NCBI GenBank assembly: GCA_018882895.1
Contig: VERF01000024.1
Span: forward strand, 1 to 35,201
From: Candidatus Kapaibacterium sp.
GTDB lineage: Bacteria > Bacteroidota > Ignavibacteria > Kapaibacteriales > Kapaibacteriaceae
Direction of reading: 5' to 3'
Length of the DNA stretch: 35,201 nt
A program made the position numbers and the translations under genes. Position 1 is the stretch's first letter, and each line of letters opens with the position of its first letter. Shown here piece by piece: positions 652-29,476 of this stretch. The notes under the pieces were generated by a model, which saw only the letters and a program-made list of their open reading frames with translations, had not been told where the DNA came from and did no database searches.

Positions 652-3321
652 TTATCGAACCACAGTCAGCGGCATCGTGGCTGCAAACTCTCCAAAACGG
701 ACCACGAGTGTGTAGGCACCCGAGGCGATCTCCCCACCGAGGTTCATGCGTAGCGATGATCCGGCTTCGAGCGCTTCCGAGGCGGTTGACAGCGCTGTGC
801 GACCGGCAGCATTGACGATCGAAACCGTAAATGCAGGCATTGCCTTGCCGAACCGAAGTTCGACAACGTCGGTGGCCGGGTTCGGGAAGGCCACGATACC
901 GGCCTGCTCGGCGTCGATCACGCCACCAGGAGTTTCGGCCGTTCCACTGAGGTTGATCGTTGAGTTACCACCATTTGCCGAGCGCAGTGCCAGCTGAGCT
1001 GATCGCTTGCCAACAGCCGCAGGGGCAAACTTCACGCAGATCTCAGCCGAGGCACCGGCAGCGATCGTCAACGGCAACGTTGTTACGATGCTGAAATCGC
1101 CGGCGTTGCTGCCGAGGAATGACGCTTGATCAATCGTGATGTCCTGAGCGGAGGTGTTGGTCACAGAGATGCACTTCTCTACCGACTTGCCTGTTTCTGT
1201 CACCCCAAAATCTTGAGAACCCGCGGCGGTGTAGCGGAGCACATAGTTGGCGCTCAGTGCAAGCGTCGCCTGTGGATTCTGCGTGGCATTCGAGCGGACG
1301 GTGACGGTGCCATTGAGAGCCCCGAGACGCGTCGGTGTAGCAATAAACGTCATGGATTGATCAGCGCCCGGCGCAATATCAAATGGCAGTGCCGGGGCGT
1401 TGCTGATCGTGAACTCCGACGGCGCCACCGTAAGTCCCGTGATCGTCAGAGGTGCGTTACCGACATTCTTGATGAGCGCGGCAACATTGATCGTCTTGTT
1501 GTAGCCCTGAGGAATCTCACCGAATTCAACTGAAGTCTGGGAGAGTTCCATGGCTGGACGTGGGACGACCGGATCGTTCACAACCACCTTGGCTGCAGCA
1601 GAAACAACCCCACCGCATGTGTTGTTGATGCGAGCAGTGTAGAAACGGGCATCACTCTTGCGAACACTACTGACGCGATAGTTCGAAGTGGTAGCATCCT
1701 TGATGGCCACGTCGTTACGGTACCATTGAACTGTTTGGCCATCCGTGGCGACAACCGTTAGTGATAGGGCTTCGCCCGTTGTGAGGGTATCACCCAGAGG
1801 TTGGGTCGTCACCGTCGGGCGGCTCACGACCGTCAGCGTAGCCGTGTCGCTCCGCGTGGTAAGACCGCAAGTTCCGGTTGCAACGACAACGTACTTGCCG
1901 GCATCTGATGGCTTGAGTGAAGTCAAAACAAGTGTGTTGGACATTGCATTGGCAATTGCCTGGCCGTCCTTGAACCACTGATAGCTAAGCCCGGTACCTG
2001 TGTATTCTGCTACGATCGTTGAGTTTCCGCCAGCACATGCAACAGCACTCTTCGGCTGTGTATTCATGATAGGGGCGCGGAAACCTGAAACACGTACTGT
2101 GCGTGTCTGCTCGGAGATAACACAATTGTTTGGATTCGGGATCTCAGACCTGACCATGCAGTAATACTGACCATTCATTGAAAGGTCGTAGTTGTTGAAG
2201 GTCAATGTAGAGCTCGTTGCTCCATTGATGAGCTTGCCATCCTGATACCATTGGTAGGACAAATTGAGTCCTGTTGCCTGGACACTTATGGAATTACCGT
2301 TGCTGCCTGGACAGCATGTAATGGCGATCGGCTCGCGTGTGACACGGGGCTTCACCGCCACTGTCAGATCGCAGATAACACTTGTCGATGGAGGAGCACA
2401 AGTGCCCGAGACCACACAAGAATAACGGCCGGCTGTAGAAGCTCCAGCGTTGTTAATAACAAAGTTAGAGTCCGTCGCTCCGGCGATGGCTACACCGTCC
2501 TTGAACCACTGGAAACGGCGTCCGGCACCCACGGCCCGAACGATCAGTGTATCATTGGCGCTTTCGCACACAACTCGAGTGGCCGGAAGGTTGACGCTGA
2601 AAATTGGGGCCTGAATGACTGTGAGCTTGCCCGTTCCTGACTGCGTGACCATCACCGATGGATTACAGTCGTCACGCAGCGTTACGCTGTACATGCCGTC
2701 GCTCGCAAGTGAAACTGCCGGAATCGTGTACGACGTCGAGCGCGTTGGCGGACCCAGTGACACTCCGTCCTTGAACCACTCATACGTACCGTTGAGCATG
2801 TCAGACGACACAGTAAAAGTCACCGGCGACCCCACACAGATCGACTGACTGCGTGGGCTGGCCGATATCACCGGAGCCTTGCAGGCAGAAAGAACCGTGA
2901 ATGCTGCCGACGTGCCGGGGTTTGATTGGGTACACCAGCCAGCCTGGGGAACTTCGCTGATGCGAATTCTGTATGTCGTTGTCGGTACAGCATTCAATGG
3001 GATCGTCCAATTGTAGCTTTTCGTGTAACCGTCCAATGCCGACGAAACGACGGTCCACGTCGCTCCGTTGTCGGAGGAATACTCGAATCTGTACCTTCCA
3101 CCATAATTGCCAATGGTGTAATAGCCTGACGACCAGCGTGCTGTGCATACCGTACCCTGCACGAACGAGGCACCACCGGCAGGGCTGGTGACCGAGATCG
3201 TGGCCCAACCGTAATTACACTGCGCCTGCAATGAGCTCGGCGCCATGATTACGGCAGTCAGAGCAAGCGTAAGTACCCCGATGCTTCGCAGTAGCCTGGT
3301 GCAGAGAGTAGAGACATTCAT
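652..3321 (-). CDS. Secreted multi-Ig surface protein with T9SS sorting domain
   Basis: An 889-residue exported protein. Residues 1-34 are a signal peptide ending LQAQ. Residues about 40-146 resemble the Kre9/KNH-like Ser-Thr-rich domain (VTSPAGGASF, then TARW). Five Ig-like modules follow at about 150-235, 238-322, 324-411, 415-497 and 500-581. Each carries a W-[FY]-x-[DN]-[GDV]-type motif such as YEWFKDG, FQWFKDG or YQWYQDG, and most have paired cysteines. Two ASPM/HYDIN-like 'choice-of-anchor D' domains lie at about 592-692 and 695-795. Residues 806-889 (AFPNPATD, then IVNAAGR, then ASGAYTLVVR) match the type A C-terminal sorting domain of T9SS. This suggests secretion across the outer membrane and display or release as an adhesin or structural protein. 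The ligand is unknown. The start is the ATG at 3321, with only a weak AGGGA upstream. Confidence 0.88.
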   Translation of the reverse strand: MNVSTLCTRLLRSIGVLTLALTAVIMAPSSLQAQCNYGWATISVTSPAGGASFVQGTVCTARWSSGYYTIGNYGGRYRFEYSSDNGATWTVVSSALDGYTKSYNWTIPLNAVPTTTYRIRISEVPQAGWCTQSNPGTSAAFTVLSACKAPVISASPRSQSICVGSPVTFTVSSDMLNGTYEWFKDGVSLGPPTRSTSYTIPAVSLASDGMYSVTLRDDCNPSVMVTQSGTGKLTVIQAPIFSVNLPATRVVCESANDTLIVRAVGAGRRFQWFKDGVAIAGATDSNFVINNAGASTAGRYSCVVSGTCAPPSTSVICDLTVAVKPRVTREPIAITCCPGSNGNSISVQATGLNLSYQWYQDGKLINGATSSTLTFNNYDLSMNGQYYCMVRSEIPNPNNCVISEQTRTVRVSGFRAPIMNTQPKSAVACAGGNSTIVAEYTGTGLSYQWFKDGQAIANAMSNTLVLTSLKPSDAGKYVVVATGTCGLTTRSDTATLTVVSRPTVTTQPLGDTLTTGEALSLTVVATDGQTVQWYRNDVAIKDATTSNYRVSSVRKSDARFYTARINNTCGGVVSAAAKVVVNDPVVPRPAMELSQTSVEFGEIPQGYNKTINVAALIKNVGNAPLTITGLTVAPSEFTISNAPALPFDIAPGADQSMTFIATPTRLGALNGTVTVRSNATQNPQATLALSANYVLRYTAAGSQDFGVTETGKSVEKCISVTNTSAQDITIDQASFLGSNAGDFSIVTTLPLTIAAGASAEICVKFAPAAVGKRSAQLALRSANGGNSTINLSGTAETPGGVIDAEQAGIVAFPNPATDVVELRFGKAMPAFTVSIVNAAGRTALSTASEALEAGSSLRMNLGGEIASGAYTLVVRFGEFAATMPLTVVR

Positions 3322-3492: not shown

Positions 3493-6400
3493 TTACCAAC
3501 TGGAGAGTATCTGCCGGGTGGTGTGGTGCCCGACATCATTTTGTAACTCCACGATGAGCAATGTTGGCCACTGTGAGACCCCTGACACATCAATCATCTG
3601 TTCGCCGACGTCGACCCTTCGCAAGAAAAGCAGTCGGCCGTCAAGCGAGTACAGCTTTAGAGTCGCAGGGAAAGGGTTTGGCTCGGGTATGAATATCGCA
3701 CGGGAGCGTCTGTCAAATCGGATGGTAACTGCCGACTCATTAGCCGGCTCAGGTGTCGACGACGTCCCATCCGTTGTGAAGACAGATGTCGCCCCATAGG
3801 TCCGGAGTGTGTCCGGCCCCATCGCCACCGGTCGCCAGTAATACCTCAAATTGGGCGACAGACCATTGTAAAGCCCCGTCGAGTCTCGGAAATCAACGAC
3901 ATTCATCCCCTCATCGAAGTACGGATCTGTCCCAACCTCGGCCGTGAGCTTCGCTGAAGGCAAAACGTTCCCAACCACCAGAGAGCCGGTTGTAGGAACG
4001 CCCCTTTTTCCGAACCGTGGGGTTCGAGGAACAAGATTGGGCTGTTCGCCCCCTCTCAGAGTGACGAATGCTGTATCCGACCACGGACCAATTCCACGAT
4101 CGCTCCGCGGCTGCACTCGCCACTGAAGAAACGGGGCACCTTGGGCAAGCCGCTTTAGAACGATTGTTTCGGTCACAACAGTATCGAGGGTGAGCCGATC
4201 GAATGCCACCCAGTCTGTTGCCTGCACATGGTATGATGTGGCATCATCAACCGGCATCCACTCGAATGTGGCAACGGCCCCGATCGGAACGAAGTCACCG
4301 TCAAGAGGCTGAATGAACTCCGGCTTGGTCAGCGACGCGGCCTGCACGAGACGGATCCGTCGAAGCTTCGATTCCCTCCATCCATAGCGACCAAGCACTC
4401 GAACTCCAACAAGCAGATCCTGTTCGGGAGGAAGTCCTGAGATCCCTAGTTGCCTGCCTTCGACAGGCCAGGTCCCAATGGCACCGCCACGCGCTAACGA
4501 TACAAAGACCTCCGCAGAGTCAGTCTCCGATACCGGACGGAAGCGCACATCAACCTCTCGTGACCGGTCGAGATGGACCGACGGCTCGGGACTGATGATC
4601 CAAGGGCGGTCAGGGAGGGTACCAAAGAATGACGTGGCTGCGGACGTTGCACCGGTATCGGTTGATGCAGTGACCGACCAGACATATGGACGTGATGGTT
4701 TGAGAGTTGGCGGGATCTCCAGAACTGTGTCGCTCACCACCTGGTCTACAAACGTTTCTCCGGAATTGGCTCCTGTGATGAGAACGCGATATGTACGCGC
4801 GCCGCTGAAGGCCTGCCACCTTAGGGCATCGCCAATGGCAGCACCTGCCGTGTCGGTTTCCGATACCGGGAATACCAGCACGGGAACATTGGGACGCACC
4901 GAGAACGTAGCGGCGTTGCTCCAAAGTCCCACAACTCCGTTACGAATCCGTCTTACTCGCCAGTAATGAGTAACGCCCTCGCGCAGATCGGACACACAAA
5001 CAGAAAAAGTGTCAGTGACGACGGCGCTGTGCACAAGACGCGTAAAGGCGTTCGTTCGCGATACTTGCACCTCATAGCTGCCAGCCCCGGCCGCCGAAGA
5101 GAACACCAACTTTGGTCGACGCACGGTGATTACGGTGTCGCGAACCGGCGAAATGGTTCGCGAAAGGATGCAGTCAGCACTCACCAAAGCGTACTCGCCG
5201 CTTGTAACTCGAGGGACATTCCAGGCGCTGTCCCGAGCATCGAATGCTGCGCCGTCGACACGCGTGAACGCACCACTTGCCTCGGTAGAACGCCAGACGA
5301 GCTGCCATGGGTCAGATGGATCGGCAAAGGCAAGCCCCTTGGCATGGAACTTCATCGTTCCGGTGACCTGCTGCCCGTTTTCGCAGCGCACGATCCATCT
5401 GTACGGCGCCACCACACATGGTGTGAGCCCTGTGAAGGTCGGGACGTGCGGAGCATAGTGGTGTTTCTCTACGACAATTGCCGTTGGACGTGCGACTGCT
5501 GTGACATTGATGTCAAGATTGGTCGTACTGTCGGCTTGCATTGCGCTAAGAACTTGTGGCTTGTCTACTATTCGCCGCCAGGCGGTCATGCCAAACTGAA
5601 CTTTCGAAACGCGATAAGGCGTGATACGCGGCGCACCGTCGAAACGCATGCGCGAGTAGACGTTCCCGTTGCGGTCGATCTCCTCAAGTACACGGCCCGG
5701 CGATGTTTCATCAGTGATGCGCGAACCGTATCCGATAAGAATGTGTCCATTAGGCAATTCGCTGACGCTGCCCATGGTGGTGGTGAAGATCGATGGTTCA
5801 GGATAGTACTCCCAGACTCGACGCACGGTCTTGGCAACTTCATTCACCTCGTACTCTACGATCCTGGTCGCCTGTGGAGGGGGCTTCAGGTTGCCGTTAT
5901 CGAACAGCATAAGCGTCCCACTGCTTGTTCGGAACGCCGAATGCTGGTGTGAAAAGCCTCTGAATCCGGAGGTCGAGTCGTCAATGAATGTGAAATCATT
6001 GATCCTGGATGCGGTACCGCCCATGGCCCAGAGCAGCTTGCCTGTTATGCGATCGATCTTCAATACGGCGTCGATATGTCGGCATGATACCAGGAGGTTG
6101 CCATCTGTATCGCGCTCTACAGAGTTGATGTGAATGTAGTCAACCACATCAAGACCAAAGTCCATATCCTCCATTGTGGCTGAAGGATCAATGTGATCCA
6201 GCGATCTCCACTCGAATAGTACCTTGCCGTCTTTGGATATCTCCTGGATGATGCCCTCTACAACAAGTGCGTCCCGGTTTCCGCCGGCACGATACTTTGA
6301 GAGGTCTACCGGAACCCATCGCTGTGACAACACCAGGAAGGATGTATCACTCCAAATGCGTCCCTCATGAAAGTCAGCCGTCATCTGCCCGACGGGATAG

Positions 6401-6777
6401 ATCGTGTCGAGCACCTCGTTGTTGCCATTTCGAACGACATATCCGTACACCAGCCCGGCAGCATTGCGCAGGATGGCAAAATGAGAGATCAGACCCGGTA
6501 CATCTGAGCGTGGGTTGGCATGTGGTCCAACTTCGTAGCGAATGACCACTCGCCCGGAGTGATCCATAAGTCCAAGCGAATCGGCCGAATTGGGGGCAAA
6601 GAGGTAGTAACCTGGATAGGGGTCGTTGAGACTCTCAACGACAAGCGATCCGAACTGGCGCTGCGCCTGTGTCGAAACGATGGTTGTCAGCAGGGCAACT
6701 GCGGTGACCGATAATTGCAGTATCCGACACCATATTTGCCTGATGAAGAACCTGTTGTGGTGCATTTTGGTATTCAT
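3493..6777 (-). CDS. Secreted arylsulfotransferase-family protein, paralog 1 (ASST + FnIII + T9SS-like tail)
   Basis: A 1094-residue protein counted from ATG 6777 (ATG 6765 is equally possible). The frame extends upstream to a TTG at 6864, but that stretch does not look like a signal peptide. The signal peptide ends at VSTQA (about residue 38). Residues about 40-480 match the Arylsulfotran_2 group of the ASST family: DFHEGRIWSD (135-144), DYIHINS (213-219), SCRH (231-234), FSHQHSA (275-281) and LFDNGN (291-296). The His and Arg of these motifs correspond to the family's active site, where a histidine carries sulfate from an aryl-sulfate donor to a phenolic acceptor. That correspondence is inferred from motif order. 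About five fibronectin III-like repeats follow, then a degenerate T9SS-like tail (LKLYSLDGRLLF). Real substrates are unknown, and related propellers of this family may not be sulfotransferases. The 5' end overlaps the divergent gene at 6743. Confidence 0.85.
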   Translation of the reverse strand: MNTKMHHNRFFIRQIWCRILQLSVTAVALLTTIVSTQAQRQFGSLVVESLNDPYPGYYLFAPNSADSLGLMDHSGRVVIRYEVGPHANPRSDVPGLISHFAILRNAAGLVYGYVVRNGNNEVLDTIYPVGQMTADFHEGRIWSDTSFLVLSQRWVPVDLSKYRAGGNRDALVVEGIIQEISKDGKVLFEWRSLDHIDPSATMEDMDFGLDVVDYIHINSVERDTDGNLLVSCRHIDAVLKIDRITGKLLWAMGGTASRINDFTFIDDSTSGFRGFSHQHSAFRTSSGTLMLFDNGNLKPPPQATRIVEYEVNEVAKTVRRVWEYYPEPSIFTTTMGSVSELPNGHILIGYGSRITDETSPGRVLEEIDRNGNVYSRMRFDGAPRITPYRVSKVQFGMTAWRRIVDKPQVLSAMQADSTTNLDINVTAVARPTAIVVEKHHYAPHVPTFTGLTPCVVAPYRWIVRCENGQQVTGTMKFHAKGLAFADPSDPWQLVWRSTEASGAFTRVDGAAFDARDSAWNVPRVTSGEYALVSADCILSRTISPVRDTVITVRRPKLVFSSAAGAGSYEVQVSRTNAFTRLVHSAVVTDTFSVCVSDLREGVTHYWRVRRIRNGVVGLWSNAATFSVRPNVPVLVFPVSETDTAGAAIGDALRWQAFSGARTYRVLITGANSGETFVDQVVSDTVLEIPPTLKPSRPYVWSVTASTDTGATSAATSFFGTLPDRPWIISPEPSVHLDRSREVDVRFRPVSETDSAEVFVSLARGGAIGTWPVEGRQLGISGLPPEQDLLVGVRVLGRYGWRESKLRRIRLVQAASLTKPEFIQPLDGDFVPIGAVATFEWMPVDDATSYHVQATDWVAFDRLTLDTVVTETIVLKRLAQGAPFLQWRVQPRSDRGIGPWSDTAFVTLRGGEQPNLVPRTPRFGKRGVPTTGSLVVGNVLPSAKLTAEVGTDPYFDEGMNVVDFRDSTGLYNGLSPNLRYYWRPVAMGPDTLRTYGATSVFTTDGTSSTPEPANESAVTIRFDRRSRAIFIPEPNPFPATLKLYSLDGRLLFLRRVDVGEQMIDVSGVSQWPTLLIVELQNDVGHHTTRQILSSW

Positions 6778-8392
6778 GGCGGCGTCAATTTCGTCATTTT
6801 CACAAGACGAAATGCAGCGGCGACAACTGCACGGACTGGATACGCTGCTGAAGATGACGTCCAAATACCGTCACCCGAATGTGACAGCATTGCACTACCG
6901 CGACGGTAAGCTCTTTGCGCTGGGAGTCGACGATGTGATGGTCTCAGCCGACTCCGGGAAAACGTGGAAGCCCCTTGGCGAAGAGCTCAAACAGTCGACT
7001 GTAATCGACATCGCCACATCCGGCGATAGCGTCATCACCCTGTCTCCATCCGGAGCAATGAGTGTTTCGACGAACCGCGGACTATCATGGTCGCGCCTCT
7101 CTGCAAGCGCCGGGAAGTCCGTGAACACTATCAAGCGAGACTCCTCAGGTTGGAGTTCCGTCATGGTTCAGAATCGTGAACTCACGTGCTCAGCATTCAG
7201 TGAACAGATATCCATCAACGATAGCCTCATCATCGCTGAACGCCCCGCCGGTTGCCGGATAGTATACTCGAGCGCTGCATTTAAGGGTGCCAGCTGCATA
7301 GCGGCATCTTACCGCCACGTCTTCATTGGAATGGGGCGACAGGGCATTCTGACTTTCGACCGCGAATCCGGCCAAGTCACAAAGAGTGAGTTTGATGTTC
7401 TAAACGGCGAGTACGTTCGATCTCTCTGTGTGAGTCAGGACATGTTGTATGCAGCGATCTCCACGGGTTCAGCCGGTGTGTATCGCAGACCCGAGTATGG
7501 CAACAACTGGAGCATAATTCCCATTGATCAGCCAATGTCAGAATTGGAAGTGCTTTGTATGCACGCAACGCAAGACGGTGTTTTCTTCGGCATGCGGGAA
7601 AGTGGATTAGCATTCATTCCTCATGCATCCAAGAACGCCATTGCCATCCATCTTGGACTTCGCGACGCAATGGTCAATGGGGTTCAGAACTTTGGCGACG
7701 GGATTCTGATCAGCACCCAGCTTCGCGGCCCCTTAATGGTTGATGTTGGCTCGTTGGCCCTCACCGAACTGATCAGCCCAGATGTCTCGTGCTTTGCTCC
7801 CTCAGCGTGCGCAGTCGGCTCGGTACTCCTGACAGCCTGCCAGAATGGTGCGGTGATGTTTTCTTCTGATTCCGGACGATCTTGGACGGTGCGGTCAACG
7901 CCATCACAAGCCGGTGCGATCGTGCTGATCAAGAGCTTCGGCCCGGACCTAATGCTGCTGACAACGGCCGGCGTGCTGACGTCGCGTGATACCGGACGAA
8001 CCTGGCAACGAATACACGATGATCTTCGACAGCTGGAAACGTCGAACATGTTTCGCATGGACTCAGTCGACATTGTCATGACGAACCTCGGCGCGTACCG
8101 GGCCGTGGTAAGCGGTAGCGCACAGAAATTGGACGTGAAGACCAAGTTCGACCAGGAGCCGTTCGTAAACGCCATCTCATCGGACGGCAAGACAATCTAT
8201 GCGTCCGGTTTTCCGGCGGTTATCGTGAGCATCGATGATGGAATCACATGGCATGCCTATAACTCACCGGAGCTGATGGCTACGCGCTGCCTAACCGTTG
8301 CCGGAGACCTACTCTTTGTGGCCTCTGCCGATGGCTTTATCTATCGCGTCCTTCGCAGCGACCTTCATCAGTCGGTGCTTGGTTCACACTGA
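6743..8392 (+). CDS. Secreted BNR/Asp-box beta-propeller protein
   Basis: A 549-residue exported protein. The chosen ATG at 6743 opens a good signal peptide (MKNLLWCILVFMAASISSFS). The frame runs back to a TTG at 6626, but that part lies inside the opposite ASST gene and looks unlike a secretory N-terminus. Asp-box motifs of the S-x-D-x-G-x-[TS]-W type occur at about residues 68-75 (SADSGKTW), 109-116 (STNRGLSW), 373-380 (SSDSGRSW), 413-420 (SRDTGRTW) and 496-503 (SIDDGITW). These mark a sortilin/sialidase-like beta-propeller. No catalytic sialidase set is recognisable, so a binding or scaffolding role is more likely than hydrolysis. The protein ends SVLGSH with no clear T9SS sorting domain, unlike its neighbours. 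It lies between two ASST paralogs and ends 3 bases before the stop of the convergent one. Confidence 0.8.
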   Translation: MKNLLWCILVFMAASISSFSQDEMQRRQLHGLDTLLKMTSKYRHPNVTALHYRDGKLFALGVDDVMVSADSGKTWKPLGEELKQSTVIDIATSGDSVITLSPSGAMSVSTNRGLSWSRLSASAGKSVNTIKRDSSGWSSVMVQNRELTCSAFSEQISINDSLIIAERPAGCRIVYSSAAFKGASCIAASYRHVFIGMGRQGILTFDRESGQVTKSEFDVLNGEYVRSLCVSQDMLYAAISTGSAGVYRRPEYGNNWSIIPIDQPMSELEVLCMHATQDGVFFGMRESGLAFIPHASKNAIAIHLGLRDAMVNGVQNFGDGILISTQLRGPLMVDVGSLALTELISPDVSCFAPSACAVGSVLLTACQNGAVMFSSDSGRSWTVRSTPSQAGAIVLIKSFGPDLMLLTTAGVLTSRDTGRTWQRIHDDLRQLETSNMFRMDSVDIVMTNLGAYRAVVSGSAQKLDVKTKFDQEPFVNAISSDGKTIYASGFPAVIVSIDDGITWHAYNSPELMATRCLTVAGDLLFVASADGFIYRVLRSDLHQSVLGSH

Positions 8393-8395
8393 TCC

Positions 8396-11098
8396 TTATC
8401 TGCAGGGTGGCACGGCCACTCGTATACTGCCATCAGCAAGCACGAGTCTAACAGCAAACCATCCGAGTGTGCTCGGTGGTGGGTCACAGGAGATCGCTTG
8501 TCCATCCCATAAATATGTTGCCGACAGCATTCGACCTCGCATGTCGAAGTAGTCGACATGCGATGGTGGTTCAGTGCAGTGAATTCGGAGTTGGCCATCA
8601 ATGCACTCCATTGTCAGGCCCTCAGCAGTAGGGTCGGTTCGGGTGCGCGCCGAGGTTGACCTTTGAACCCGAAACATGGCCACATGCCCGGTGTCCAAAT
8701 CGGACCCCTTGCCTATCACCCTCCAGAAATACGTAGCGCCATCGGTGAGGTCATCGAAAAGGATCTCACCCGGATCGGCAACCGGTACCGAGATCGGCGA
8801 TGTGATCACTCGCCCCATTATCAGCTGGCTAAGCTGCACTTCATAGTCGATGATGTCGGGCGATGTTGTGAAGGCCAGCCTAACCGGCAACTCCGTGATC
8901 GTTCGCCCGTTGATAGGCCCCATGGGCATGAGCGCCTGACCATCTGAAGGGGGCGTTGCAAAGCCCATCAGTGGCGACCATGGACTTGAACTCGCCGTGT
9001 CGAGATATAACACTCGCCAGAAGTAGGTCATCCCCTGCTCGAGCGGACCATAGTCATACCCCTCAATTGCGGCGTCGACAGTGTCGAGTCGCACCTGAGT
9101 AAAGTCAACACCGTTGATGGGCCCCCTGACCGAAGGTGTCACCTGCACAAGGATCTTTCCGAGGGGGCGCGGCGCCTTCCATGAAAGTCGAATACTGTCC
9201 CCTTGGATGAACACGTCAGCCTCAGGTTCAAGCTCACCGGGCAAGGCCTCTTCTCTGCGGAGGGTGCGCGTGTGCCATGAGAGAGAATCGGCGCCGGCAC
9301 CGGTGCTTCCGACCAATCGGGCAGCCCACGCATAGGTGCGCTCAGGAAGAAGATCGTTTGCCACAAATGCAGCAGTTGCGTCGGGCCGCTGTCTAAGTAC
9401 CCTGCGGTTGACGGAATCCGGCGCATCGAGCGGCCAGTAGCTGACCTCGGCGTGAACATCGGCGGCTGGCATCGACAGCACCACCTCGGCTGCATCTGGC
9501 GAGACCCGCACCGTCGGCTCAGTGTTACCGAGGCGCAAAGGCGCCGGCAAGGAATCAACGGCTGCGATGATCTCGCCGCGCATCACGCGCGCAAGCGTGA
9601 ACCGACGCGTGGCCGAGTCATAGGCGGCGTTCAACCGAACAAACGGGCCGCCCCCTACACTGTCACGCCCATACAGGCTCACGCCGCCAGACGGGGCGCG
9701 AGGCAGAACACCGGCGTCGAACTGCGTTGTACCTTCAATGGATGCGGCCGACCCCGATGGTGCATATCGAAGCACCCATCGCATCGGCAGAACATGCTCG
9801 GGTGTGCGTCCCGAGAATGTCAGCACTGGAGGCCGCGTGTGGTGGCGCTCGGCAGCGACGATCACATTCGAAGTGTGCTTGCTTACCAATATGCTCACCC
9901 CGGTTGAGCTATCGGCATCGACAAAATTGTAGCTGCCAGTTGCGGTGATCGTGTCGATCACGGCCGTCATGCCAACGCGTGCCTTGACCACCCGATACGG
10001 GTCGATCGGTGCCGCTGTGATGTTTCGCACCGTTGCCACGATACGACCATCACGATCGATCTCGTGGGCAAGGATCCGGCCTGATTCGCTGCCGTAGCCA
10101 ACAATGATGTTACCACCCGGAAGCTCCTCGACATTGCCCATTGATGGGACAAAGCCGACACTGTCGGGGATGATCGAACGAATGGCCCTGACGGTGCGGG
10201 CAACTTCATTGATCTCATACTCGACCACTCTTGAGAGCCGCGGCTCGGGCTTGAGGTTCCCGTTGTCAAACATCATGATCGTGCCGCGAGGCGTTCGAAG
10301 CGCCGTGTGCTGATGCGAAAAACCAGTAAAGCCGCCGATCGTGTCATTCAGGAATCGGAAGTCATTGCGCTTTGCCGCGCCGCCCCCCAAGCGCCAGAGC
10401 ACCTGTCCGCTGGTGCGGTCGATGCGGATCACCTGGTCCGTGTGCCTGCAGGAAACAAGCAGATCGCCGTTCGTGTCACGCCAGATCGAGTTGATATGGA
10501 TGTAGTCGATGTAGTTCTGAGTAAGATCGATGTCCGAGGTCGACTCGGTCAGCGCGATGTGATCGATCGACTTCCAGCGGAAGACCACCCGGCCATCGAA
10601 GGTCTGCTCCTCGATCACGCCAACCAGAACGGTCGCATTGGGCTGTCCTCCCGGAACAACTCCCGTCAGATCCATCGTCACCTCTTCGAAACCCAGCAGG
10701 ATCATGGACGTATCAGTCCAGACCTTCCCCTCGTGGAAGTCCGCAATGGCAGGCGGCGCGAGTCTGAACGTATCAATGGCCCTTAGGTTGCCATCCCGGC
10801 GCACGAAGTAGCGCTCACGGCGCGATCCGCCAAAGTGGGTCACGTAGCGTCCGGATGCCGACGCGACATTCGTGTGCAAACCCACACGCGAGTGCATGAG
10901 GGGGCGGGCATACTCGTCAATCACCACCAAGGTATCCTGCTGTAAAGGGGCTGCAATGAAGTATCCAGGCTCGACAAATCCACGTATTTCAACCCCGACG
11001 GGAGCAACCGGACGTTGTGCAAGCCCCCTGACGCAGAGACCCGCCAGCAAGAGGAAAACAATGGCACCGAACCTGACATTTGATCGCGAAATCATCAT
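8396..11098 (-). CDS. Secreted arylsulfotransferase-family protein, paralog 2
   Basis: 900 residues from ATG 11098 (a second ATG follows directly at 11095). The frame is open further upstream, but only this start gives a signal peptide (SNVRFGAIVFLLLAGLCVRGLAQ). ASST-family motifs, in the same order as its paralogs, are DFHEGKVWTD (120-129), DYIHINS (198-204, His201), SCRH (216-219), FSHQHTA (260-266) and MFDNGN (276-281). About three fibronectin III-like repeats follow at roughly 520-820. The last 75 residues (YFDMRGRMLSATYL, ending VAVPPCR) form a weak T9SS-like tail. It is the shortest of the three paralogs because it has fewer FnIII repeats. The 73-base gap to the divergent paralog 3 carries the promoters. 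Predicted location is periplasmic or cell surface. The donor and acceptor cannot be read from sequence. Confidence 0.85.
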   Translation of the reverse strand: MMISRSNVRFGAIVFLLLAGLCVRGLAQRPVAPVGVEIRGFVEPGYFIAAPLQQDTLVVIDEYARPLMHSRVGLHTNVASASGRYVTHFGGSRRERYFVRRDGNLRAIDTFRLAPPAIADFHEGKVWTDTSMILLGFEEVTMDLTGVVPGGQPNATVLVGVIEEQTFDGRVVFRWKSIDHIALTESTSDIDLTQNYIDYIHINSIWRDTNGDLLVSCRHTDQVIRIDRTSGQVLWRLGGGAAKRNDFRFLNDTIGGFTGFSHQHTALRTPRGTIMMFDNGNLKPEPRLSRVVEYEINEVARTVRAIRSIIPDSVGFVPSMGNVEELPGGNIIVGYGSESGRILAHEIDRDGRIVATVRNITAAPIDPYRVVKARVGMTAVIDTITATGSYNFVDADSSTGVSILVSKHTSNVIVAAERHHTRPPVLTFSGRTPEHVLPMRWVLRYAPSGSAASIEGTTQFDAGVLPRAPSGGVSLYGRDSVGGGPFVRLNAAYDSATRRFTLARVMRGEIIAAVDSLPAPLRLGNTEPTVRVSPDAAEVVLSMPAADVHAEVSYWPLDAPDSVNRRVLRQRPDATAAFVANDLLPERTYAWAARLVGSTGAGADSLSWHTRTLRREEALPGELEPEADVFIQGDSIRLSWKAPRPLGKILVQVTPSVRGPINGVDFTQVRLDTVDAAIEGYDYGPLEQGMTYFWRVLYLDTASSSPWSPLMGFATPPSDGQALMPMGPINGRTITELPVRLAFTTSPDIIDYEVQLSQLIMGRVITSPISVPVADPGEILFDDLTDGATYFWRVIGKGSDLDTGHVAMFRVQRSTSARTRTDPTAEGLTMECIDGQLRIHCTEPPSHVDYFDMRGRMLSATYLWDGQAISCDPPPSTLGWFAVRLVLADGSIRVAVPPCR

Positions 11099-11136
11099 GC
11101 AAACTACGCCGACCAGTAAATTGCAGCTACTACGAT

Positions 11137-11155
11137 GAAACGAATCCAACGTTTC
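11137..11155. promoter_or_regulatory. Inverted repeat between divergent ASST paralogs 2 and 3
   Basis: GAAACG (11137-11142) and CGTTTC (11150-11155) are separated by 7 bases. The repeat is almost centred in the 73-base gap between the two divergent starts, where a shared operator would be expected. The arms are short, so chance cannot be excluded. Confidence 0.25.
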
Positions 11156-11171
11156 GTGGTTCTTTGTTCCG

Positions 11172-14100
11172 ATGAATTCTATTTTCTCTCGACATAGCAT
11201 CTGCACCATGCTGGTCGCCTTCTTCGTTGCCCTGGGCATCGTGCAGGCGCAACAGGGGTTTCGCGAGGTTCGTATCGAACGTCTCGGTTTCGCAGCGCCC
11301 GGCTATTTCCTTCTCGCCCCGGACGCCTATGATTCTCTGGGTTTCATCGATCACACCGGGCACCGAATTCGAAAGATCTACTCCGGTATCCTCTCAACGC
11401 TCCAGTCGTATGGAGATACCTCGCTCACCCACTTCCTGGTAACAGGGACGAAGACGCAGTTTGTACGTCGCAACAAGTCACTGGAGGTAACTGACACCAT
11501 GCGTCTAAATGGGGCTTACGGTGTTGACTTCCATGAAGGGAAGATTTGGACAGACTCATCGTATGTGGTCCTCGGCTTTGACGATCGCGTGGTTGACATG
11601 TCGAAGCTGGTGCCGGGCGGTAAATCCGATGCCGTAGTGCGCGGGGCGATCATCCAGGAGCGCACGTTTGACGGACGCGTGCTGTTCGAATGGCGATCGT
11701 TGGAGCATATACCCGTGACTGATGCCACGGAGGACGTTGATCTGCGACAGCAGCGAATCGACTACATACACGTCAACTCTATCAATCGCGATGCTAACGG
11801 CGACTTCATCATCTCCTGCCGCCACCTCGATGAGGTCATTTGCGTTAGTAAGGGCAATGGGGCGGTTCTGTGGCGTCTGGGCGGAGCCAAGTCCAATGGC
11901 AATCAGTTTACTATCATCGGAGACTCCGTCGCCGGGTTCAGCGGGTTTTCCCATCAGCATACGGCCATCATCACATCACGCGGAACGTTGATGATGTACG
12001 ATAACGGGAATTTGAAGCCCGCACCGCGAAGCTCCCGTGTGGTCGAATATTCGCTTGACATACCGAACCGCAAGGCAACACGCGTTTGGCAGTATCTGCC
12101 GATTCCACGAGTGTATTCCTCGTCAATGGGAAGCGTTCAGGAGTTGGAAAATGACAACATCCTGATTGGATATGGGCTTGTCGATGAGCCTGCAGGGTCG
12201 GCCCTCATGGCCCAGGAGGTCACACGTTCCGGTACGGTCGTGGCAGAGATTTACGACAATTCAGGTTCGACTCTCGCATCCTACCGGGTAATGAAGACTA
12301 CGATGGGCATGTTCGGCCGATATGTACAAGCGTCGGGTCCGGGCGAGATCAGATTTTCCACGCCCGACAGCACCACGTACGTCTCCATCAACTTGAAGCG
12401 CGTTGCCAAACCCACGGGTATCGTCGTGGAGCGCCACTCGTATGCCCCAAAGCTCATAACCTTCGTTGGGAATTCGCATTGCGGAACTCTACCTCTACGA
12501 TGGGTGGTGCGGCTGGAGGATTCTGACGCGGTCTCCGGAACGATGACATTTGACGTAGGCTCCATGGCTAACGTTGAGGATCCTACCAAGATCCGCCTGC
12601 TGTACCGGCCGGCCGAAGGGCAGGCAGGATTCGCCCCGTTGGAAGGGGCCTATGTGCCAAATCTGCGCGCCTTCGTTCTTCCAACGATCCTAAAGGGCGA
12701 GTTCATGCTCGCCTACCTTGACTGCTTTGATCCGATTCCCGTTGCTCCAGCCAATGGCGCGGTGGAAGTGTCGGTTACGCCGACATTGTCATGGAAGGTC
12801 GCTGCTCTGGCCGATTCGTATGACGTGCAGCTGTCGACAACCAGTGATTTCGCCAGTCCGGTCATGACGCTCACGACGCGCAAAGTCGACACAACACTTC
12901 CGGCTCTTGTCAATTCCCAGCGCTACTTCTGGCGCGTTCGGAAACGATACACCAATGGCCCCGGCCCGTGGTCAGCCCCCTTCAACTTCACAACACAGAT
13001 CGGACTTTGCACTGCGATCTCACCTGTGATCAAGGGCAAGGATACTTTGGCCATTCTCCCCAATCACGTCTTCAAATGGACTCGGGCTCAAGGGGCGACA
13101 ACCTATCGGCTGACAGTCAGTGACTTTGCGCTTGAGCAGCCGATCGTTGATGTGACAACCACCGCCGACAGCTTCAACATCGGAACGCGGCTGGCTCCGA
13201 ATGCTCGATACGTATGGACCGTTCGCGGTATCAATGGAGCCATTCAGGGCCGGCTGACACCGAAGGCATTCTTGGTGACGGCTCCGGACGTGGTTCGCCT
13301 GAAGCTGCCTGACAATGATGCGTTCTTGCCGTACGCGCCGTCGACGCAATTCACCTGGGAGCCGGCAGCAGGAGCCGTGCGCTATGCAATGCTGGTAAGG
13401 TCGGCAAAGGACTCCTCCATCCTTTACAGAGACACCGTCGTCTCAACATGGGTGCGCGTCAACTCACTGCCGAAGAATCTACCAATGCTCTGGCAATGCC
13501 GAGCAATTGGCCGATATGGTGCCGGACCTCAGTCGCAAGAGTATCATTTCACCCTGTTCTACGATGCTCCGCTTGGGCGGCCCGTTGCGATAGCACCTCG
13601 TGGAAACGACGTACCATATGGCCAAGGCGAAGTGGACTTTAAATGGTCGTCTGTTCTAGACGCCAACCGATACCGCCTGCAGGTGTTTGACCGAAAGAAC
13701 ATCTCAGGGGCAATAATCGATACTATTGTTGATGGCTTGAAGTTCATGACCGCAGGTTTCCTTCCCTCCACCAGCTATGACTGGCGCGTGATGGCCATGA
13801 ATGATCGTACCCTCGGCCCGTGGTCGGATACGGCACGCTTCATCACCATGGCCGACACCAGCTCATTCGGCTTGCTTCCAACCTATCCGGAGACCGAAGC
13901 CGTAGATGTGCCGACTGAAGGCGAGCTTCGATTCACAACTTCTGAACGCTATCGTCGATACGAAGTTCAGTTGAGCTGGGACGAGAGTTTTAAGCCCATC
14001 CTGGCAACATATCCGTCTACCGGTGGAACCGCTACTTACTCCGGCCTGCTCAAGAATGCCCGCTATTTCTGGCGCGCCGTCGGCATCGCCGAAGATGAAT

Positions 14101-14402
14101 CCAAGACCATCGGTGCCTATTCGATGTTCACAACACAAAGTCCCACGGTTCATGTGACGGATCGCGGAGAGTCGGCAATCACCGTTGGTAGCAATGCCGA
14201 TGAGATCATCATCGCCGGAGACGTTCCTGCTTCTTCACGATGCAGGATCTACGACCTTCTTGGCAGGGAGATTGGAACGTATGAGCTCGAATCGAGTTCT
14301 TCTCTGCAGAAGCTGCAGCCCCCTTTCAGAGGCGTCGTTGTTGTGGTCATCACCACACCACAAGATGAGCCCCTTTGGAAGGGGGCTCTGCACATCCGCT
14401 GA
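11172..14402 (+). CDS. Secreted arylsulfotransferase-family protein, paralog 3
   Basis: 1076 residues. ATG 11172 starts a signal peptide (MLVAFFVALGIVQAQ core, cleavage near residue 26) with no ribosome binding site visible. ASST-family motifs: DFHEGKIWTD (119-128), DYIHVNS (197-203, His200), SCRH (215-218), VLWRLGG (232-238), FSHQHTA (259-265) and MYDNGN (275-280). From about residue 515 there are five fibronectin III-like repeats, several with the pattern YxVQLS...YFWRVR...GPWS. The tail SRCRIYDLLGREIGTYEL to HIR (about 1015-1076) is the best T9SS type A-like sorting domain among the three paralogs. The predicted activity is sulfate transfer between phenolic compounds on the outer surface, but this is family-based inference. 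It is transcribed away from paralog 2 and ends at a strong bidirectional terminator. Confidence 0.87.
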   Translation: MNSIFSRHSICTMLVAFFVALGIVQAQQGFREVRIERLGFAAPGYFLLAPDAYDSLGFIDHTGHRIRKIYSGILSTLQSYGDTSLTHFLVTGTKTQFVRRNKSLEVTDTMRLNGAYGVDFHEGKIWTDSSYVVLGFDDRVVDMSKLVPGGKSDAVVRGAIIQERTFDGRVLFEWRSLEHIPVTDATEDVDLRQQRIDYIHVNSINRDANGDFIISCRHLDEVICVSKGNGAVLWRLGGAKSNGNQFTIIGDSVAGFSGFSHQHTAIITSRGTLMMYDNGNLKPAPRSSRVVEYSLDIPNRKATRVWQYLPIPRVYSSSMGSVQELENDNILIGYGLVDEPAGSALMAQEVTRSGTVVAEIYDNSGSTLASYRVMKTTMGMFGRYVQASGPGEIRFSTPDSTTYVSINLKRVAKPTGIVVERHSYAPKLITFVGNSHCGTLPLRWVVRLEDSDAVSGTMTFDVGSMANVEDPTKIRLLYRPAEGQAGFAPLEGAYVPNLRAFVLPTILKGEFMLAYLDCFDPIPVAPANGAVEVSVTPTLSWKVAALADSYDVQLSTTSDFASPVMTLTTRKVDTTLPALVNSQRYFWRVRKRYTNGPGPWSAPFNFTTQIGLCTAISPVIKGKDTLAILPNHVFKWTRAQGATTYRLTVSDFALEQPIVDVTTTADSFNIGTRLAPNARYVWTVRGINGAIQGRLTPKAFLVTAPDVVRLKLPDNDAFLPYAPSTQFTWEPAAGAVRYAMLVRSAKDSSILYRDTVVSTWVRVNSLPKNLPMLWQCRAIGRYGAGPQSQEYHFTLFYDAPLGRPVAIAPRGNDVPYGQGEVDFKWSSVLDANRYRLQVFDRKNISGAIIDTIVDGLKFMTAGFLPSTSYDWRVMAMNDRTLGPWSDTARFITMADTSSFGLLPTYPETEAVDVPTEGELRFTTSERYRRYEVQLSWDESFKPILATYPSTGGTATYSGLLKNARYFWRAVGIAEDESKTIGAYSMFTTQSPTVHVTDRGESAITVGSNADEIIIAGDVPASSRCRIYDLLGREIGTYELESSSSLQKLQPPFRGVVVVVITTPQDEPLWKGALHIR
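14367..14388. repeat. Convergent pair of the AGGGGCT motif
   Basis: GAGCCCC (14367-14373) and GGGGCTC (14382-14388) form a 7-bp-stem hairpin with an 8-base loop inside the last codons of ASST paralog 3. It is an inverted pair of the dispersed ARGGGGCT motif described in the findings. Confidence 0.5.
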
Positions 14403-14425
14403 TCCCCTGGCGTAGCCGCATAAGA

Positions 14426-14467
14426 AAAGAGGCCATCCCCGTCGCATCGGACGAGGATGGCCTCTTT
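14426..14467. terminator. Bidirectional rho-independent terminator
   Basis: Perfect 13-base arms AAAGAGGCCATCC (14426-14438) and GGATGGCCTCTTT (14455-14467). The stem is extended inward by CGTC/GACG after one mismatch, leaving a 6-base loop. It is flanked by an A-rich stretch on the left and a T-rich one (CTCTTTGATTT) on the right. It lies between the convergent stops at 14402 (+) and 14491 (-), so it can serve both genes. Confidence 0.92.
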
Positions 14468-14490
14468 GATTTCTACCGGTACGTTCGGAC

Positions 14491-17259
14491 TTAGAACGTA
14501 TACGTCAGACGTCCCTGGATGAGTCGACCAATGGCCGCCGCACCGATGAACTGCTGGACACGATGGTCGAGAAGGTTGGTGGCCGTCAGGTTCAGACTCA
14601 AACCATCAACACCCGGGATCGCATACTGCGCCGTGAGGTCAAGCATGTGGTAGGCGTTCACGTCACCCACATACACACCCGAATTCATCTTGAAGCCGTC
14701 AACCCAGCGCCATTGCAAACCAATGTTCAGACCAAGGTCAGCATTGCGGTGCATGATGCCGAGCGCCGACTTGTACTTCGGAGCATTCAGTGCGATCTCG
14801 GCGGTGCTGTCAGCATCGTTCAGATCGGCACCGGTGAAGACGTTTTGGCTCATCCATGTTGCCGAACCCGTAACCGCCCACTCTGGTGAAAGCTCATACG
14901 TGAAAGCAACGTCGCTTCCGTAGTACGAGAGCTTGCCGTAATTGCGATAGGCAAGAAGCACGTCACCCTTGTGCGGAGTTTCGTTTGGAGAGGCCGTTCC
15001 AACCGGTACCTGTCCGTAGGCACCGCCGATGAGGCCGGAATACTGCGAGGCAATGGCTTCTGCCTGAGCTTCGGGAATGCCTTGACCTAGCAGCGCACCC
15101 TTGAGAAGGGGCTTGAGATACGCCGTGACAGAGGCGCCATCGAGGAAGACGTTCGGGGTGACGACCTTGAGCGGCGACACGAAATCCGTCACAGTTGACT
15201 GATAGAGATCGACAGCCACACGAAGCTTGTCGGTCAGCTTGCCCTGATAACCGATCTCGATGGTCTGCGTGCTGGTTTGACGCAGCTTGCTGACATCCTG
15301 AAGATCCTCCGGACGCATCGGGATGAATCGCTCGGCCGCAGAACGTGCGTTTGGATTAAGCATCGCGAGATTGCCCTTCATGCCCGAGGGGGCAGGAACT
15401 GCCGTGAGGAATGGACGCAGAAGCGGCTTGAGATTGTCCGGCGCTGCGGCCTCGAGCTGGGGAAGGATGATCTGCGTGACAACTTGCCAGACACCGCCGG
15501 CAGCGGCATTGTTCACGCCAAGCCATCCTGCGCGGGTAGGATCGAACTGAGAGATGAAGTTCACCACACCACCTGTGCGGTTGAACGTATAGCCGTTGCG
15601 TCCAGCTGATGCACCCCAGATGCCTACTGACCAAGCAGGGTTGACACGGCCCAGGCCAAAGCCATCGCGCACGCTCAGAAGGTCCAGGAATAGGTCGTTC
15701 GTACCTGGATTGCTGAACGCAGTATTGAACGTTGCACGGATCGAAGAATTCTCGTCGAGCTTGTAGAGCAGAGCCACACGGGGCGACATGACCATTTCGC
15801 CAATGACCGAGTGCTGGTCAACACGCACGGCAGCAAGAGCCGACAGGTCCGATGTGATCTTCCAGTCGCCCTGAAGGTATCCACCGATCTCGGTGTAGTT
15901 GTCATTCTCTTCGTTCACACCGTTGATGGTACCGTCAGTGACCGGATTGGTGGAAAAGAAGTCAGCGCCGTATGTCAGACGAATGTCATCGTTGACCTTA
16001 TACGCATGCTGAAGACGTCCGCCGAGCAGCGTCGAGCGGTCCACGATCGGATTGCCCGTACGCAGGAAGTACGTGTTACCGGCGTCACTCATGTTGGTGA
16101 ACACTTGAGCGAACAGATCCCCCGAGGTGAGTTGAGCATTGGCGTACGTATATCGCCAATCGCTACCGACGGCGGCACCAAGACCCGTCATTTCGATGGT
16201 ATTGACGGCTTGCGAGATACCGCCGTTGATCTGCACCATCGTGTTTTCGCCGAGCATGTAATAGGCCCCGGCATCGACATTGAATCGCTCGTGCTTGCTG
16301 CCCTTACGATCGCCGATCTTCACGGTGTCAGGATTTACACCCGGAACGGCAAGTGCGGCTACTCGTGCACTGGCTTCAGTGCTATCTTCAAACACCCAGT
16401 CATCGGCAGAGAAATACTGACCGGTGATCTTATAACCGAAGTCGTCTCCCAACGTGCCTGCATGACGCAGGCCGGCGTTCAGAAGCCCACGCTCACCACC
16501 GGCGAGGAACACTGTCGTGCCCTGAGATGAGAATGGCGAGCGGGTGATGATGTTCAGCACACCCTGAGAGGCATTCGGACCGTACAGAGCCGATGCCGGA
16601 CCGCGCACAAGTTCCATGCGCTCGATGTCTTCGTTCGATGCCGGCACAAAGTATCCGACGTTCACGCGAAGACTCGGCACACCGGCCGGACGGTAGTCGG
16701 TAAGCGTCAGAAGCGAGCCGCTGAACACGTTATTGAAGCCACGGACGCTTACGTTCTGCTGCGCGATACCAGTTTGCGAGTAGTCGATGCCGGCAAGACC
16801 GCGGATGTGTTCCACCGGTGTGGCCTTCGGGGCTTCGCGAATGGAACGGGGCTCTACAACCGTTACCGATGCCGGTGCCTCGGAAGCCTTCTGCTGAACG
16901 CGTGAGGCCGTAACAACGGTAACGTCCATGTCGATCGCCGTTTCCACCAGTGAAACGTCACGTGTCGTGGCACCGCTGATCTCAACGTTTTCCGCGACAT
17001 TCTTCTGGTAGCCGACGCATGTGACGACCATCGTATAGCTTCCGTCCGGAAGCCCCTTGATCGTGTACCGTCCGCGTGAGTCCGAATAACCGCCCCGTGT
17101 GAAGGAGCCATTCGGAACGCTGACCTTGATCGAAGCACCGGGTACGGCTTGGCCGCTTGGACCGGTGACTCGTCCGCTGAGTACTCCCTGCGCATACGCC
17201 GCCACCGTTGCGATGGCGATCATCGACGCTAGAGTTAAAGAACGTAAGAGAAATGTCAT
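14491..17259 (-). CDS. TonB-dependent outer-membrane receptor
   Basis: 922 residues. The signal peptide ends AAYAQ (about 24). Residues about 25-110 form a carboxypeptidase-regulatory-like beta-sandwich (LSGRVTGPSGQAVPGASIKV, then GYQKNV), common in Bacteroidota receptors. A plug domain follows (VVTASRVQQKASEAPASVTVV, then NVSVRGFNN, then MELVRGPASALYGPNASQGVLNIITR, about 115-245). A 22-strand-type barrel ends in the aromatic residue of TYTF, the usual outer-membrane assembly signal. The protein would import a ligand using TonB-ExbBD energy. The ligand (siderophore, vitamin, peptide or sugar) cannot be told from sequence, and no SusD partner is adjacent. ATG 17259 overlaps the TGA of the upstream GNAT-like gene (ATGA), with GGAG at a good distance, so the two are translationally coupled. 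Confidence 0.93.
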   Translation of the reverse strand: MTFLLRSLTLASMIAIATVAAYAQGVLSGRVTGPSGQAVPGASIKVSVPNGSFTRGGYSDSRGRYTIKGLPDGSYTMVVTCVGYQKNVAENVEISGATTRDVSLVETAIDMDVTVVTASRVQQKASEAPASVTVVEPRSIREAPKATPVEHIRGLAGIDYSQTGIAQQNVSVRGFNNVFSGSLLTLTDYRPAGVPSLRVNVGYFVPASNEDIERMELVRGPASALYGPNASQGVLNIITRSPFSSQGTTVFLAGGERGLLNAGLRHAGTLGDDFGYKITGQYFSADDWVFEDSTEASARVAALAVPGVNPDTVKIGDRKGSKHERFNVDAGAYYMLGENTMVQINGGISQAVNTIEMTGLGAAVGSDWRYTYANAQLTSGDLFAQVFTNMSDAGNTYFLRTGNPIVDRSTLLGGRLQHAYKVNDDIRLTYGADFFSTNPVTDGTINGVNEENDNYTEIGGYLQGDWKITSDLSALAAVRVDQHSVIGEMVMSPRVALLYKLDENSSIRATFNTAFSNPGTNDLFLDLLSVRDGFGLGRVNPAWSVGIWGASAGRNGYTFNRTGGVVNFISQFDPTRAGWLGVNNAAAGGVWQVVTQIILPQLEAAAPDNLKPLLRPFLTAVPAPSGMKGNLAMLNPNARSAAERFIPMRPEDLQDVSKLRQTSTQTIEIGYQGKLTDKLRVAVDLYQSTVTDFVSPLKVVTPNVFLDGASVTAYLKPLLKGALLGQGIPEAQAEAIASQYSGLIGGAYGQVPVGTASPNETPHKGDVLLAYRNYGKLSYYGSDVAFTYELSPEWAVTGSATWMSQNVFTGADLNDADSTAEIALNAPKYKSALGIMHRNADLGLNIGLQWRWVDGFKMNSGVYVGDVNAYHMLDLTAQYAIPGVDGLSLNLTATNLLDHRVQQFIGAAAIGRLIQGRLTYTF

Positions 17260-29446: not shown

Positions 29447-29476
29447 GACGTCATCGTGTCTATCTGTGAGGAATTC

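Follow-up and report, generated by a model that had tools for sequence, protein, structure and literature searches.

Which donors and acceptors bacterial arylsulfotransferases (ASSTs) use in nature, and what roles they play, is described as an open question (PMC13426309). For Cpz4 and LipB, the reported site of sulfation is the sugar moiety of nucleoside derivatives (PMC13426309, PMC11576661). Cpz4, the caprazamycin sulfotransferase of Streptomyces (PDB 9kf6 and 9kf4), is a protein of 472 residues encoded by a biosynthetic gene, and has neither FnIII modules nor a tail for the type IX secretion system (T9SS). In its pathway, the donor is loaded by a PAPS enzyme. The propeller enzyme AssT of E. 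coli CFT073 (PDB 3elq, 3ets and 4p04–4p07) is described as a periplasmic protein of 571 residues with one disulfide, with DsbL/DsbI in its operon (PMC13426309). The AST of Bacteroides vulgatus (BvAST), an ASST from the Bacteroidota, is described as sulfated on a histidine, and no T9SS or FnIII architecture is mentioned for it in the available part of that account (PMC13426309). T9SS type A cargo proteins (TIGR04183/PF18962) carry a signal peptide and a C-terminal sorting domain, often together with FnIII or Ig modules.

We analysed a window of 35,201 nucleotides from the uncultured bacterium Candidatus Kapaibacterium sp., which contains three ASST genes at the positions claimed in an earlier note on this DNA: paralog A at 3493–6777 on the minus strand (1094 residues from its ATG), paralog B at 8396–11098 on the minus strand (900 residues) and paralog C at 11172–14402 on the plus strand (1076 residues). 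In each protein, a hydrophobic N-terminus that ends in a QAQ- or LAQ-type site precedes the ASST region, which is followed by a long C-terminal half, and the three are about 34–40% identical to one another over their matched parts. The layout of A is a signal peptide, an ASST propeller, FnIII-like modules and a degenerate T9SS tail; in B, the C-terminal half is shorter and the tail is the most degenerate. In C, all on the plus strand, a predicted signal peptide read by eye from the sequence (MNSIFSRHSICTMLVAFFVALGIVQAQ; 11172–11252) is followed by the ASST propeller with the next domain (11253–12749), five FnIII-like domains (12732–14141, residues 521–990) and a degenerate T9SS type A sorting domain (14166–14399, residues 999–1076). 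The proteins are Bacteroidota ASSTs like BvAST, which was compared by its description, and they share the general plan of T9SS type A cargo; unlike in the AssT operon, no Dsb pair was found beside A, B or C among the window ORFs examined.

Membership of A, B and C in the ASST family, as claimed earlier, was borne out by Pfam searches, in which all three lay past the curated cut-offs. PF05935 matched A, B and C far past its cut-off, with E-values of 1.1e-33, 1.7e-25 and 2.3e-26, and PF14269 with 1.7e-29, 1.1e-25 and 3.2e-23, respectively. The motifs DFHEG, IHxNS, SCRH, SHQH and DNGN, which the earlier note had listed as shared, were all found and aligned in the three proteins, and the correspondence with the AssT active site that it had proposed to check likewise held by alignment for the columns of H252, H356, N358, R374 and H436. 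Sequence alignment of C with the solved chains placed His200 and Asn202 (codons 11769–11777, with Val between them) on AssT His356 and Asn358, Arg217 (11820–11822) on Arg374, and His263 (11958–11960) on the nucleophile His436. When the H436N mutant chain 4p04 was aligned with paralog A, its Asn fell exactly in the His263 column, confirming the nucleophile column. His121 of C, in DFHEG (11532–11534), aligned with the DLHD motif of Cpz4, and its equivalence to AssT His252 follows from motif order and via Cpz4. In an alignment of 78 relatives over the active-site columns, His121, His200 and His263 were invariant (78/78), while Asn202 was kept in 76 and Arg217 in 73. The position of AssT Thr501 is occupied by Gly in A, B and C; since Cpz4 also has Gly there, the Thr is no requirement of the wider ASST family.

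Cpz4 shares the order of the active-site motifs with A–C and was their best match both in sequence and in fold. Searches against PDB sequences matched Cpz4 with E-values of 6.7e-32 for A (9kf6) and 2e-19 for C. The AlphaFold2 model of the ASST region of C (pLDDT 94.2, 40 sequences) returned Cpz4 (9kf6 and 9kf4) first in Foldseek (E 2e-22) and E. coli AssT next (about 1e-13), both ahead of all other propellers, with moderate TM-scores of 0.5–0.67 to the solved enzymes. Between sister species, the catalytic part was the best conserved part of the proteins, with few amino-acid changes and silent sites near saturation, so that ratios of amino-acid to silent change are rough. Collectively, sequence, modelled fold and aligned active site identify A, B and C as members of the ASST family, and they are predicted, and likely, to be active sulfotransferases. 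A compact divergent ASST paralog with a frame of 530 residues and a good T9SS tail score was also seen at positions 4661–6253 of locus L047 (contig C84); His replaces the Arg374 equivalent in this protein. In six genomes, only the domain behind the propeller (about positions 350–490 of the ASST profile) was matched, and this accessory domain seems, from such matches, to be common to other large proteins.

The C-terminal halves differ in length and in how readily their modules are recognized. The earlier note had counted about five, three and five FnIII copies in A, B and C. The AlphaFold2 model of the C-terminal half of C (pLDDT 85) contained five FnIII-like sandwiches and a separate seven-strand end domain, and its Foldseek search returned fibronectin and other FnIII proteins; B has 372 residues beyond the ASST region, room for about three FnIII-like units. 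Thus five copies were modelled in C and the space in B fits three, whereas with Pfam fn3 C alone passed the cut-off (E 2.6e-10), A and B scoring 23.6 and 18 bits against a cut-off of 25.

The T9SS-like tails proposed for the three proteins were supported for the group and not for each member. Neither Pfam (PF18962) nor NCBIfam TIGR04183 detected a T9SS tail in A, B or C, with TIGR04183 reaching no more than E 0.11 for C, and a profile built from the genome's own tails gave marginal matches to the single sequences of C (E 0.006) and A (E 0.015) and none to B. In contrast, a profile of 27 weak tails of long ASSTs matched the profile derived from this genome's T9SS tails with a probability of 96.4% (E 1.4e-9), compared with 0.0–0.3% for the controls, which were the preceding FnIII pieces and column-shuffled profiles. 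B-type tails alone reached a probability of only 11.6% against the T9SS tail profile; the pooled weak tails include those of B, and a comparison of B tails with this pool is circular and was set aside. The tails of A, B and C retain a core resembling YDxxGR, yet unlike standard type A cargo they score under the curated cut-offs, and the PNP with which such tails usually begin is absent from those of B and C. By profile comparison, the end domains of the long ASSTs, taken as a group, are degenerate T9SS type A tails, and since the tails match and the controls do not, the comparison supports T9SS routing of this group. The genome encodes type IX machinery, including SprA and PorV, and has 97 TIGR04183 matches; two further ASST paralogs of the same genome (D and E, on contig C63) bear standard T9SS tails.

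A hairpin of 71 nt is embedded in the coding sequence of the tail of C (14317–14387, plus strand). It is conserved at the DNA level among C orthologs (L076 9243–9313, L077 8569–8639 and L078 7444–7514), being 93–97% identical between species, compared with near-saturated silent sites elsewhere in the C gene. Its minimum free energy lies between about −37 and −41.5 kcal/mol, with z-scores of −5 to −7; in L078, one stem pair has switched jointly from C-G to U-A. The hairpin belongs to no Rfam family, and no further copy was found among the loci compared. Within the window, no Rfam match reached the gathering score; sub-threshold matches at 14420–14520 fall on a strong terminator-like hairpin (14426–14467) in the gap where the C gene and a TonB receptor gene converge.

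The three genes form part of a conserved block. On one side lies a gene for an Ig-like/choice-of-anchor-D protein with a T9SS tail (652–3321, minus strand), and on the other one for a TonB-dependent receptor with a carboxypeptidase-regulatory-like domain (14491–17259, minus strand), which has 81–86% amino-acid identity in sister species. Between A and B, a BNR/Sortilin-VPS10-type propeller protein with a signal peptide is encoded at 6743–8392 on the plus strand, a genus-wide neighbour of ASST genes. The order Ig-like protein, ASST A, BNR propeller, ASST B, ASST C, TonB receptor and GNAT-like gene is conserved, in whole or in part, in three sister genomes, and the ASST–BNR pair recurs in most remaining genomes of the genus. 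The divergent arrangements described earlier were found as such: B and C are separated by 73 bp (11099–11171), with TTTG directly ahead of both start codons, and the 5′ ends of A and the BNR gene overlap by about 20–35 bp. Divergent overlapping BNR/ASST starts were compared at 6743–6777 of the window and at orthologous sites in seven other loci. An ATATTTG motif lies a few nucleotides upstream of the BNR start, inside the signal-peptide codons of the ASST gene, and is kept in eight of nine loci. From their sequence, the TTTG and ATATTTG motifs are perhaps Bacteroidota-type −7 boxes of nearly leaderless transcripts. Elsewhere in the window, a single ORF at 29456–33814 on the plus strand joins a complete RND pump (ACR_tran) to an OEP domain for outer-membrane efflux, and is followed by a membrane-fusion protein gene.

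One contig of the same assembly (C111, locus L045) shares its starting base with the window, and the two remain collinear as far as about window position 9747. DNA identity between the two is 91–96% over the first 400 bases, 42–65% across A and the BNR gene and 90–99% inside B, and the proteins of the intervening cassette are only 45% (ASST A) and 39% (BNR) identical. Sister-species genes in the place of A are 61–75% identical to the C111 gene, F, over N-terminal or whole-length matches, compared with 46–54% to A, and A falls outside the F clade in the tree. This pattern looks like two haplotypes with a swapped ASST–BNR cassette, or a second copy with homogenized flanks.

The cluster had been presented as a triplicate; several paralogs are indeed present, but the number is understated. 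The genome has eight PF14269 matches and, in addition, a partial second B-type copy on C111, giving at least eight copies, and ASST copies number 5–8 in all ten other genomes of the genus, mostly with frames of 700–1170 residues. The local triplicate is therefore part of a lineage-wide expansion. In the tree, A, B and C each grouped with their own sister-species orthologs (support 0.99–1.0), and the duplications are older than the sister species because each paralog clusters in this way; other ASST pairs (L086, L124, L096 and L125) appear, from the same tree, to have been duplicated separately. Those relatives that bear a name are Candidatus Kapaibacterium and further MAGs of the Ignavibacteria. 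Outside the family, ASST enzymes are patchy. In a sample of the phylum, the ASST-region profile matched 44 of 247 genomes, and several genera belonging to the same class had more than one copy or an array. Searches of a partial collection of open papers returned none that links ASSTs to the T9SS or to FnIII modules. ASST proteins with T9SS tails are, however, already annotated in databases. Neither the fold nor the active site is new; the uncommon features are the combination of FnIII modules with T9SS tails, the arrays throughout the lineage and the apparent lack of PAPS machinery.

This apparent lack emerged from a search of the genome, rated 100% complete, for three families: APS kinase (PF01583), Sulfotransfer_3 (PF13469) and Sulfatase (PF00884) gave no match at E 0.001. 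Within the limits of these three families, we infer a cell without the usual PAPS route; in the genus, APS kinase was detected in only two of 11 genomes. Because none of the three was found, the donor is most likely an arylsulfate encountered outside the cell.

Taking these observations together, we propose that A–C, as members of the AssT/Cpz4 superfamily, catalyse sulfate transfer independently of PAPS, are exported by the T9SS and use an external donor with glycan or phenolic acceptors, a proposal we regard as evenly balanced. A, B and C would be synthesized with a signal peptide, as read from the sequence, and would cross the outer membrane through the type IX system by means of the C-terminal sorting domain, as tail homology and the presence of SprA and PorV suggest. 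The modelled FnIII units would act as spacers separating the catalytic part from the tail. With His121, His200, Asn202 and Arg217 holding an arylsulfate in place, the invariant His (His263 in C) would, by analogy with AssT, accept its sulfuryl group and then pass this group to a second hydroxyl in a ping-pong transfer. The acceptor would most likely be a surface or environmental glycan, or a phenolic compound; by analogy, a glycan is no less likely than a phenolic, because the nearest characterized relative, Cpz4, sulfates a sugar hydroxyl. Several paralogs with differing numbers of FnIII modules may provide different acceptor or position specificities.

A scavenging or detoxifying role, in which the ASSTs strip sulfate off environmental arylsulfates with an incidental acceptor, either freeing phenolics or protecting the cell and replacing missing sulfatases, seems rather unlikely to us. 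An external substrate would fit secretion, the genome has no detected Sulfatase-family protein, and BvAST and EcAST are described as acting on small phenolic sulfates (PMC13426309). However, transfer requires an acceptor, 5–8 diversified copies with FnIII modules exceed the simple need, and no aromatic-degradation gene was recognized among the window ORFs examined. It is more doubtful still that the propellers are non-enzymatic binding or adhesion domains of a surface protein: FnIII arrays, a cassette that varies between strains and adjoining proteins of the Ig and BNR types are typical of adhesins, but the invariant active-site histidines, the near-complete retention of Asn and Arg and the stronger conservation of the catalytic half argue against it. 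The least probable alternative is a caprazamycin-like pathway in which a phenolic or pyrone lipid, produced by a type III PKS of the cell itself, serves as ASST donor or acceptor, for although Cpz4 is the closest fold and a type III PKS occurs in this genome (one copy) and, across the genus, in 10 of 11 genomes, neither a Sulfotransfer_3 PAPS-dependent donor-loading enzyme nor an APS kinase was found, and large ASSTs and the type III PKS occur apart (ASSTs without the PKS in three genomes, the PKS without large ASSTs in five). A link to the type III PKS was dropped, as its distribution beyond the family does not follow that of the ASST arrays.

The preferred reading of A–C as exported sulfotransferases can be extended, tentatively and with less confidence than the proposal itself, to a bacterium that lacks the usual PAPS enzymes and sulfates its own or its neighbours' surface glycans through a T9SS-exported ASST array, drawing on waterborne arylsulfates, with strain-variable enzymes setting the pattern. 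Genomes that encode 5–8 putatively exported ASSTs, and in which neither APS kinase nor sulfatase was detected, provide an uncluttered case where the search for donor and acceptor has to turn to the outside of the cell. Large modular ASSTs are unexplored as sulfation catalysts and, given their similarity to Cpz4, may possibly serve for sugars.
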